A stretch of 64,000 nucleotides of DNA. Source: Acidobacteriota bacterium. Lineage in GTDB: Bacteria > Acidobacteriota > Holophagae > Holophagales > Holophagaceae. Made by a program: the position numbers and the translations under genes. Positions 61,147-64,000 of this stretch are shown piece after piece. The stretch is from NCBI GenBank assembly GCA_016195985.1, contig JACPYP010000031.1, positions 1 through 64,000 on the forward strand, read 5' to 3'. The notes under the pieces were generated by a model, which was not told the DNA's origin, did not search any database, and saw only the letters and a list, made by a program, of their open reading frames with translations. Within the stretch, counting starts at the first letter, position 1; each line of letters starts with the position of its first letter.

Positions 61147-61644
61147 GTGCCCCGGATCCCGGGCTGCGGTAGGGTGAAGGTATCCGGAGAACGCCGCTTG
61201 GAACTGATCGAGGAATTCCTGCCCTACGCCCAGAGCTGCCTCCGCCATCCCTCGGAGCGGGCGCGCCTGGCGGCCATCCTCGCCCATTGGGCCTCGAAGT
61301 GGAAGGGCAAGCACCGTCTCTTCGACTATTCCCGCAGCCACCATGGCGCCTACCTCCATTTCAACCAGCTCATGGATGGGAAATGGGTGCAGGCGTTCAC
61401 CTTCGTGGCCACCAAGCGGGAAGGGGTGTGCCTGCGGGGCCCCGATCCGGATCGCGCCCGGAAATCCCACAAATTCCGTCACAACCCCCTGGACGCCGCG
61501 CCCCTGGATGCCCTCTTCGAGGCCTGGTCGGCGCATCCCGAACACCGCCCCAGCGGCCACGCCGTGGAGTTCTTCCTGGAAGAGACCCCCGACGACACCT
61601 GGACCGCCTGCCTGCAGGAAGCCCTGACCCATCTGGGTGCCTGA
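61147..61644 (+). CDS. Hypothetical protein
   Basis: ~150 aa ORF; alternative GTG start at 61174. Confidence 0.55.
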   Translation: MPRIPGCGRVKVSGERRLELIEEFLPYAQSCLRHPSERARLAAILAHWASKWKGKHRLFDYSRSHHGAYLHFNQLMDGKWVQAFTFVATKREGVCLRGPDPDRARKSHKFRHNPLDAAPLDALFEAWSAHPEHRPSGHAVEFFLEETPDDTWTACLQEALTHLGA

Positions 61645-61753
61645 GGGCAAACCGCACTTAGGGGCCAGAAAGACCCCCACGAAGATCACCCTTCGTGTCT
61701 ACACATCGGCTCTTGCGGAAGCGCCTCCGATCAGGCATCGTTTCAGGACTGCC

Positions 61754-61822
61754 ATGCTGACCTCCCGCTTCTATTTCGCCTTTAGCTTTCGCACCTCGGG
61801 TGCGAGGGTAGGCGGCGTCTAG
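61754..61822 (+). CDS. pheL: Phe-rich leader peptide MLTSRFYFAFSFRTSGARVGGV
   Basis: 22-aa ORF, AGGA 5 nt upstream of ATG, FYFAFSF cluster, followed by terminator then pheA. Confidence 0.75.
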   Translation: MLTSRFYFAFSFRTSGARVGGV

Positions 61823-61845
61823 AACCGGAACCGCTTCGACCATCG

Positions 61846-61874
61846 CCCCCGAGACCTCACGGCTCGGGGGTTTT
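61846..61874 (+). terminator. Attenuator terminator upstream of pheA
   Basis: CCCCCGAG-acctcacgg-CTCGGGGG-TTTT. Confidence 0.85.
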
Positions 61875-61879
61875 CGCAT

Positions 61880-62998
61880 GTGGGAGAACCCATGACTCAG
61901 ACCGGTCCACCCTCTCTCGCCCAGCTCCGCCAGGGCATCGACGCCGTGGATGACCAGGTGCTGGCCCTGCTCAACCGGCGGGCGGCCCTGGCCGCCGAAG
62001 TGGGGCGCCTGAAGGCGGAGGTCGCGCCAGCGGGCCTTTTCCATGTGCCCAGGCGCGAGCGGGAGATCCTGGCCCGGCTGGAGGCGGCCAACGCCGGCCC
62101 CTTCCCGGATGCCGCCGTGCGCACCATCTTCCAGGAAATCATGAGCGCCTGCCTCAGCCTGGAGAAGCCGCTGCGGGTGGCCTTCCTGGGGCCCGAAGGC
62201 ACCTTCACGCACCTCGCGGCCCGGCAGCAGTTCGGCGGCTCCAGCCAGGCCCTGCCCCAGGGCACCATCCAGGCCGTGTTCCAGGCCGTGGAACGGGCCC
62301 GGGCCGACTACGGCGTGGTGCCCGTGGAAAACGCCACCGAAGGCGCGGTCGATTCCACCCTCGATGCCTTCCTCGACAGCCCCCTGCGCATCTGCGCGGA
62401 GATCCTGCTGGCCGTGGATCAGGCCCTGCTGCTGAGGCCAGAGCTGGACCTGGGCGGCGTCCGGCGCGTCTACTCCCATCCTCAGGCCCTGGGCCAATGC
62501 CGGCGCTGGCTGGAAGCCCACCTGCCGCAGGCGGACCGCATCGAGGCGCCCTCCACGTCCGAGGCCGCCCGGTTGGCGCGGGAGGATGGGGAGGGCGCCG
62601 CCGTGGCCTCGGAGCTGGCCGCGGAACTCTTCGGCCTGCGCGTGGCCGAGGCGCGCATTCAGGATCTGGCGGCCAACGCCACCCGCTTCGTGGTGCTGGG
62701 GCCCAAGGCCGCCGAGCCCACGGGCCGCGACCGCACCACCCTGGTGGCCATGGCCCAGGATGGCCCCGGCGCCCTGCTGCGCCTGCTCGAACCCCTGGCC
62801 CGCCGCGGCCTGAACCTGAGCCGCATCCAGAGCCGCCCCACGCGGCGCAAGCTCTGGGAATACGCCTTCTTCCTCGACGTGGAGGGCCACGCCGAAGATC
62901 CCGCCATGGCCGAGGCCCTGGCCGAACTCCAAACCGCCTGCGCCTCCCTGAAGGTGCTGGGCAGCTACCCGCAAGCGGCCATGGAAGGTGTGCGATGA
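61880..62998 (+). CDS. pheA: Bifunctional chorismate mutase / prephenate dehydratase
   Basis: LRQGIDAVDDQVLALLNRRAALAAEVGRLK; FLGPEGTFTHLAARQQF; VPVENATEGAVDSTLDAF; ACT domain. Confidence 0.93.
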   Translation: MGEPMTQTGPPSLAQLRQGIDAVDDQVLALLNRRAALAAEVGRLKAEVAPAGLFHVPRREREILARLEAANAGPFPDAAVRTIFQEIMSACLSLEKPLRVAFLGPEGTFTHLAARQQFGGSSQALPQGTIQAVFQAVERARADYGVVPVENATEGAVDSTLDAFLDSPLRICAEILLAVDQALLLRPELDLGGVRRVYSHPQALGQCRRWLEAHLPQADRIEAPSTSEAARLAREDGEGAAVASELAAELFGLRVAEARIQDLAANATRFVVLGPKAAEPTGRDRTTLVAMAQDGPGALLRLLEPLARRGLNLSRIQSRPTRRKLWEYAFFLDVEGHAEDPAMAEALAELQTACASLKVLGSYPQAAMEGVR

Positions 62999-64000
62999 AG
63001 CCCTGGCAGCCGGACTCCTGGCGGAGCCTTTCTGCGGCGCAGCAGCCCGTCTACCGCGATGCGGCCGCTGTCGGCCCCGTGTTGGCCGAGCTGGCCGAAC
63101 TGCCGCCCCTGGTGGTGGCCGAAGAGGTGGATGCGCTGCAGCGCCTGCTGGCCGAGGCCGCCGAAGGCAAGCGCTTCCTGCTGCAGGGCGGAGACTGTGC
63201 CGAGGCCTTCGCCGACTGCCGGGGCGCCATCATCCAGGACAAGCTCCGCGTGCTGCTGCAGATGTCCGTGCTCATCACCCACGGCGGGCGCACCGGCGTC
63301 ATCCACCTGGGGCGCATCGCGGGACAGTACGCCAAGCCCCGCAGCGGCACCACGGAGCGCATCGAGGGGCGGGAGGTGCCCGTCTACCGCGGCGACCTCA
63401 TCAACGGCCTCGCCCCCGATCAGCGGGAGGCCGATCCGAATCGGCTGTTGGAGGCCTATCACCGCGCCGCCGCCACCCTGAACCACCTGCGGGCCCTGGT
63501 GGATGGCGGGTTTGCGGACCTGCAGCATCCCGAACACTGGGATCTGTCCTGGAGCCGGGAGGACGCGGGCCACTACCTGGAGACCCTCGACCAGGTGCAG
63601 AACTCCCTGAACTTCGTCCAGCGGCTGGGCGGGCTGCCCGAGCACCTGCGCACGGGGGAGCTCTTCACCAGCCACGAGGCCCTGCACCTGCCCTTCGAGA
63701 CGGCCCTCACGCGCTTCGTGCCGGAGTACGACCGCCACTACAACCTGGGCGCCCATTTCCTGTGGGTGGGCGAGCGCACCCGCCAGCTGGACGGCGCCCA
63801 TCTGGAGTACATCCGCGGCATCGCCAATCCCATCGGCCTGAAAGTGGGCGCCTCCATGACGCCTGATACGTTGCGACAGGCGCTGTCCAAGCTGGATCCG
63901 GAGCGGCGCCCCGGGCGCCTCACCCTCATCACCCGTTTCGGCGCCGGCAAGGCCGAGGCCGTGCTGCCCGCCCTCATCGAAGCGGCCCGGGCCGAAGGCC
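62995..64000 (+). CDS. Class II (plant-type) DAHP synthase, truncated by window end
   Basis: PWQPDSWRSLSAAQQPVY; LLQGGDCAEAFADC; GRIAGQYAKPRS; not listed as an open-ended ORF in the track; ATG overlaps pheA stop. Confidence 0.93.
   Translation, partial: MKPWQPDSWRSLSAAQQPVYRDAAAVGPVLAELAELPPLVVAEEVDALQRLLAEAAEGKRFLLQGGDCAEAFADCRGAIIQDKLRVLLQMSVLITHGGRTGVIHLGRIAGQYAKPRSGTTERIEGREVPVYRGDLINGLAPDQREADPNRLLEAYHRAAATLNHLRALVDGGFADLQHPEHWDLSWSREDAGHYLETLDQVQNSLNFVQRLGGLPEHLRTGELFTSHEALHLPFETALTRFVPEYDRHYNLGAHFLWVGERTRQLDGAHLEYIRGIANPIGLKVGASMTPDTLRQALSKLDPERRPGRLTLITRFGAGKAEAVLPALIEAARAEG

Follow-up and report, generated by a model that had tools for sequence, protein, structure and literature searches.

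Most of what is known of leader-peptide attenuation comes from Proteobacteria and Actinobacteria, and some cases are known in Firmicutes. In enterobacteria, the phenylalanine leader pheL combines a Phe-rich short open reading frame (ORF) with alternative antiterminator and terminator structures, and its target gene encodes a bifunctional chorismate mutase-prephenate dehydratase. A survey of Actinobacteria found no conserved RNA element upstream of phenylalanine operons (PMC1262725), and in 2010 it was stated that almost no attenuator predicted in Acidobacteria had an associated function (PMC2965389). The trpL RNA of Sinorhizobium meliloti begins with its ATG, which is a precedent for a near-leaderless leader (PMC7298713). 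In Salmonella, the Pro codons within the leader ORFs mgtP and mgtL govern whether transcription continues into the gene (PMC3641672).

Here we analyse a candidate attenuator upstream of pheA in Acidobacteriota. It was originally described as working like pheL without being related to it in sequence, and this description holds. Positions 61640-61920 have no Rfam match near or above the gathering threshold, and no homology to a described leader RNA family was found.

The pheA operon and its leader peptide

The window, that is, the whole 64-kb stretch of DNA that was analysed, belongs to a Geothrix assembly of 4.26 Mb (Holophagaceae, Acidobacteriota). The host is a bacterium of soil and sediment. 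Judged by pheA, the closest named relatives are G. limicola, G. campi, G. terrae, G. fermentans and others. All features of this locus lie on the forward strand. The product of pheA (61892..62998) consists of chorismate mutase, prephenate dehydratase and ACT domains (Pfam CM_2 5e-21, PDT 2e-62, ACT 1e-12; NCBIfam prephenate dehydratase 4.8e-85). The second gene of the operon encodes a class II DAHP synthase (62995..64000, continuing beyond the window end; DAHP_synth_2 match 5.7e-176 on L032), and its start overlaps the pheA stop by 4 nt (ATGA). The genes under the candidate attenuator thus encode committed enzymes of phenylalanine and aromatic biosynthesis. The ribosome-binding site of pheA predicted from the sequence, GGGAG (61882..61886), lies 3' of the terminator and is free of its pairing.

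The leader ORF (61754..61822) has 22 codons, with ATG at 61754-61756 and the stop codon TAG at 61820-61822, and encodes MLTSRFYFAFSFRTSGARVGGV. The regulatory codons, positions 61769..61789, are F6 (TTC), Y7 (TAT), F8 (TTC), A9, F10 (TTT), S11 and F12 (TTT). Among the 671 short ORFs of the window (10-40 aa, both strands), this is the sole one with at least four Phe in seven residues, and the same ORF also precedes a strong GC-rich hairpin with a T run. The leader ORF, hairpin arms, TTTT and pheA are all present as first described.

Relatives of pheA were gathered by whole-genome search and a scan of named genomes, and 34 Geothrix leaders were aligned. They comprise 28 distinct peptides of 21-22 codons each, and the frame is intact in all 34. 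The original prediction had named a lack of conservation of the Phe codons as an observation that would count against it; the codons proved to be conserved. Phe is kept at codon 8 in 33 leaders (the remaining one has Tyr), at codon 10 in 33, and at codon 12 in all 34. Every leader has three to five Phe codons; that of G. rubra (L051) has three only, with other spacing. Both TTT and TTC occur at the conserved Phe codons, so in the 5' part of the Phe run it is the amino acid that is kept. Beside the hairpin TTT is strongly preferred (31/34 at F10 and 33/34 at F12, versus 9% TTT among the Phe codons of Geothrix pheA); either RNA pairing or a role as a sensitive sensor codon would account for this. 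Over the C-terminal half of the leader, third codon positions are no less conserved than first and second ones, as would be expected if RNA structure is the constraint. The pattern suggests that the Phe codons are under selection.

The predicted promoter (61713..61741) consists of TTGCGG (61713-61718), a 17-nt spacer and CATCGT (61736-61741). A promoter-like element of this form, TTG-N3, then 17-18 nt, then (C/T)ANNNT, is found at all 34 Geothrix leaders; the spacer is 17 nt in 31 of them and 18 nt in the others. Counting 7 nt on from the -10 box, the base is always A and lies 3-7 nt before the leader ATG. In the window genome this gives a predicted transcription start at A61748 and a predicted 5'UTR of 6 nt. 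Simple scans for the sigma-70 consensus promoter and for terminators yielded nothing at the pheA leader locus, because the T tract consists of just four bases and the -10 box is atypical; the promoter call therefore rests on conservation. With a start predicted 3-7 nt before the ATG, we infer that the leader mRNA is near-leaderless. AGGA (61745-61748), previously taken for a Shine-Dalgarno box, is not conserved: the relatives have AGGA, AGCA, ATCA, AAGA, TGCA, TCTA, TAGA or GGAA at this position, and in the window genome transcription is predicted to start at the final A of AGGA. From the fixed distance between promoter and ATG, a prediction on leaderless translation in attenuators follows directly.

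Alternative RNA structures and proposed mode of regulation

The candidate intrinsic terminator (region 3:4 with the T tract, 61845..61874) lies between the leader ORF and the structural gene. Its stem pairs 61845-61855 with 61862-61871 (-21.4 kcal/mol) and includes CCCCCGAG (61846-61853), nine nucleotides, CTCGGGGG (61863-61870) and TTTT (61871-61874). In the 34 sequences 100% of its alignment cells are paired. The T tract is short, and is poor in one lineage (GGGGGCTTCG in L055, L058, L059). The region 1:2 hairpin, at 61777..61814 in the window genome (-23.1 kcal/mol), has a conserved core, CGCACC (61790-61795) with GGTGCG (61799-61804), paired in 99% of cells of the same alignment. The antiterminator (region 2:3, 61795..61853, -29.8 kcal/mol) is formed by CTCGGG.GCGA.. 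with ..TCGC.CCCGAG and an inner GGCGG:CCGC helix. Its outer helix, with 94.1% of cells paired in the 34 sequences, contains the complementary segments CTCGGG (61795-61800) and CCCGAG (61848-61853), a pairing that had been proposed from the start. On the other hand, the alternative pairing proposed along with it, GGGTAGGCG with CGCCCCC, is absent from the folds, where GGCGG (61811-61815) pairs with CCGC(TT) (61831-61836) instead.

The whole antiterminator is 90% paired, compared with 40-49% when it is slid by 1-3 columns. Its significance was assessed by fixing the 5' arm of the terminator and shuffling the sequence ahead of this arm with dinucleotides preserved. For the window sequence the antiterminator half was better than all 100 shuffles, and p was at most 0.05 in 31 of the 34 Geothrix sequences. 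The fold of the leader RNA has z = -2.8 against dinucleotide shuffles. The antiterminator and the terminator are mutually exclusive, and region 1 lies near the regulatory codons. No two-sided compensatory base-pair change occurs in the 34 sequences: the stems are nearly invariant or show G-U variation only, and thus covariation neither proves nor refutes the helices. The sequence itself directly shows the leader and its conserved Phe codons, together with the terminator and the pairings that exclude one another.

From these features we infer the start site, stalling, termination and response to phenylalanine as follows. RNA polymerase would start 6 nt ahead of the leader ATG, and a ribosome would load onto the near-leaderless message. 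If Phe-tRNA is ample, the ribosome would reach the stop codon at 61820, inside the antiterminator loop, and cover region 2; region 3 would then pair with region 4, and transcription would stop. If Phe-tRNA is scarce, the ribosome would stall at F10 or F12, covering region 1 (CGCACC) and freeing region 2 (CTCGGGTGCGAGGGTAGGCGG). The latter would pair with region 3 (CCGCTT...TCGCCCCCGAG), no terminator would form, and pheA would be transcribed. Without translation, the 1:2 hairpin would form and the terminator would win.

Stalling was simulated with a ribosome footprint of 12 nt from the A site. With the ribosome at F8, region 3 is paired with region 2 before region 4 exists in 31 of 33 sequences, and with the ribosome at F10 in 27 of 28; with the ribosome at the stop codon, no antiterminator forms in any of the 34. 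A ribosome stalled at F6 would leave the 1:2 core uncovered. Folding of the complete RNA at equilibrium nearly always gives the terminator, even with a ribosome on a Phe codon, and thus the switch must work kinetically.

Inheritance with pheA and alternative explanations

R1, the covariance model of the Geothrix pheA leader, finds the leader in 38 of 47 genomes of the genus at E <= 1e-25. Five leader-less genomes of the genus were tested (G009, G010, G017, G019, G028), and none has a full-length pheA. In G011 an intact leader precedes a truncated pheA; G021, which has no pheA, retains a decayed leader that lacks a terminator. As leader and pheA are lost together, or the leader is left only as a relic, the sensor appears to go with the enzyme. 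Full-length pheA has been lost in several genomes of the genus (G009, G017, G019, G028, G011, G021), some of them 93-99% complete; this suggests phenylalanine auxotrophy.

R1 and gene searches revealed Phe/Tyr-rich leaders in six further genera of Holophagaceae, where they stand ahead of either pheA or DAHP synthase. They are MAACRFSFFYFSFRTPGAGAALT and MTSRALYFAFSYAPSGAWTGGASN in genus g19, MNLSLYSFSFFSFRASGAWAGGVLN in g24, MTPPCTFFYYFGFRTPVRVGGVLR ahead of DAHP synthase in g20, and leaders such as MTTTTFSFTYAYRYFIGGGRVRVGGALN ahead of a different pheA (33-38% identical) in g17, g21 and g23. No leader is found directly upstream of pheA in the sister family f3 (about 50% identical) or at L266-L268 within Holophagaceae. 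No such leader precedes pheA of Anaeromyxobacter oryzae (L061) or the relatives in Myxococcota and Gammaproteobacteria. The A. oryzae (Myxococcota) pheA is 61% identical to that of Geothrix; the gene may have been transferred horizontally and the attenuator left behind.

If the hairpin were merely the terminator of the upstream gene, the Phe-rich ORF would be incidental. Indeed, a 165-aa ORF on the same strand ends at 61644, some 200 nt ahead of the hairpin. However, the sequence between this gene and the promoter is wholly divergent in close relatives, whereas the leader is almost invariant. Given also the selection on Phe codons and the presence of the leader-terminator unit ahead of pheA in other genera, this explanation is scarcely credible. 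Translational control, with the leader ORF acting via reinitiation or masking of the pheA ribosome-binding site, is very improbable as well: although a leader peptide close to a gene can be a source of reinitiation (PMC4833913), here 69 nt separate the leader stop codon from the pheA ATG, the terminator lies in between, and the ribosome-binding site is outside the hairpins.

Two further explanations retain the attenuator. One is that the leader RNA or peptide, once released, has an additional function in trans, as in rhizobial trpL; the leaderless trpL of S. meliloti yields both a trans-acting RNA and a trans-acting peptide (PMC7298713). The strong conservation of the leader's C-terminal half in Geothrix would agree with such a role, but base pairing explains it, because conservation there extends equally to third codon positions, and we consider an added trans function quite improbable. 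The other concerns specificity, as the interspersed Tyr codons could mean that the leader senses tyrosine or the general aromatic supply and not phenylalanine alone. The window genome has Y7, Tyr occupies position 7 or 8 in 6 of the 34 leaders, and it is commoner in other genera and before DAHP synthase. In most Geothrix leaders, however, the run is of Phe only, and of the two codons adjacent to the hairpin, codon 10 is Phe in 33 leaders and codon 12 in all 34; broader sensing is unlikely. The original reading of this region as a pheA attenuator is backed by the Phe codons, by the conserved terminator, 1:2 hairpin and antiterminator, by the downstream chorismate mutase-prephenate dehydratase gene and by the joint loss of leader and pheA. 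The region thus very probably controls the pheA-DAHP synthase operon through ribosome-mediated transcription attenuation that responds specifically to Phe.

Leaders of other amino acids and comparison with known systems

Leaders of other amino acids were reached via weak R1 matches. Some of the weak matches were rejected: a second match in the genome of the window (L127, E 0.2) lies inside a protein-coding frame, and L111, L112, L115 and L116, having no amino-acid leader, were taken as chance. The genome of the window has Phe, Trp, proB and proC leaders. Trp leaders with a clear antiterminator/terminator pair precede trpE in Geothrix itself and in at least four further genera; that of the window genome (L229, G000:C18) is MLLSFPVPCQGLSSEAWWWRMGSDGSLREA. 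Across several genera of Holophagaceae (L221-L234) the Trp leaders are of the types WWW, WRWW and WNWCWW, with a terminator. They are probably leaderless. His-rich leaders (SCHHARHHVAH, LHHPHHRASH) with terminators precede hisG in genera g21 and g23 (L108/L217, L219, L220); none was found ahead of hisG in the Geothrix genomes examined.

Pro-rich leaders (e.g. MIPVATLNPPPSQPTSGAPAGGV) with GC-rich terminators were observed ahead of proB in all 27 Geothrix loci examined (L245, G000:C26 in the window genome, encoding MSRLLTPNPRPSHSQPVAGGSV; the other loci are in L176-L191, L246-L256). Each has three to six Pro, with PxP in 26 of the 27, and in 26 a promoter is predicted 9 nt before the start codon. 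The antiterminator is significant in only 7 of the 27 by the shuffle test used for the Phe leaders, and thus the Pro mechanism is less well supported than the Phe one; for the Pro leaders we propose only the candidate leader, its codons, the predicted promoter and the terminator. Leaders of the HPRPS/DPRPS type with a terminator precede proC in many Geothrix genomes, including that of the window (L158, G000:C13; others at L120, L123-L125, L134, L142, L143, L145, L148, L154, L160, L161). They are absent at other Geothrix loci, where proC directly follows another gene. No report of leader peptides for proline biosynthesis was found in the open-library papers searched.

An Asn-rich leader, MLKTSLTRQNNRNNANPSTDRAWGGEALV (NNRNNANPS), with a terminator occurs in a single g19 genome (L114, G077:C9:53016-53159), ahead of the gene for a probable asparagine synthetase, which resembles asparagine synthetase A (NF005054, E 7.8e-28, below the curated cut-off). 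No Asn-rich leader was observed ahead of asnA genes of the TIGR00669 type, and no Leu leader ahead of leuA in Geothrix. A Val/Leu-rich short ORF, VVGLLLLGSAGPE, upstream of ilvB in genus g17 (L324, L326) is a weak candidate for a branched-chain leader. Ten of the other-leader loci had no match in Rfam.

The units are built alike: the spacing between promoter and ATG is fixed, the regulatory codons sit at a hairpin's foot, and there is a GC-rich terminator. The specificity of the sensor may have been swapped by codon change on this common scaffold. On balance, we slightly favour the view that Holophagaceae possess a set of near-leaderless leader-peptide attenuators for Phe/Tyr, Trp, His and, newly, proline (proB, proC), as judged from these sequence patterns.

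The Geothrix pheA leader shares with enterobacterial pheL the Phe-rich short leader ORF, the alternative antiterminator and terminator, and the type of target enzyme. It differs in having no Rfam match, in being near-leaderless (as predicted) and in its phylum, Acidobacteriota, and we do not claim homology; the 1:2 hairpin is inside the ORF directly after the Phe codons, and the operon also contains class II DAHP synthase. The result is a concrete, conserved and testable candidate Phe attenuator with cultured hosts, such as Geothrix fermentans DSM 14018, in a phylum where such systems have scarcely been described. The general mechanism, outside Proteobacteria, is shared with the trp, leu and ilv leaders of Actinobacteria and the hisS/hisZ leaders of Bacilli (PMC1262725, PMC2965389). 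With rhizobial trpL (rnTrpL of S. meliloti) it has in common a leader ORF placed at the transcript's 5' end, as predicted for Geothrix (PMC7298713); however, trpL senses tryptophan, not phenylalanine, and trans-acting roles have been described in S. meliloti. The family-wide set seems to include attenuators of proline biosynthesis. The proB and proC leaders resemble Salmonella mgtP and mgtL in the Pro codons of the leader ORF (PMC3641672), but the Salmonella leaders govern Mg2+ transport and virulence genes, whereas the Geothrix leaders precede genes of proline biosynthesis and could be a new variant.
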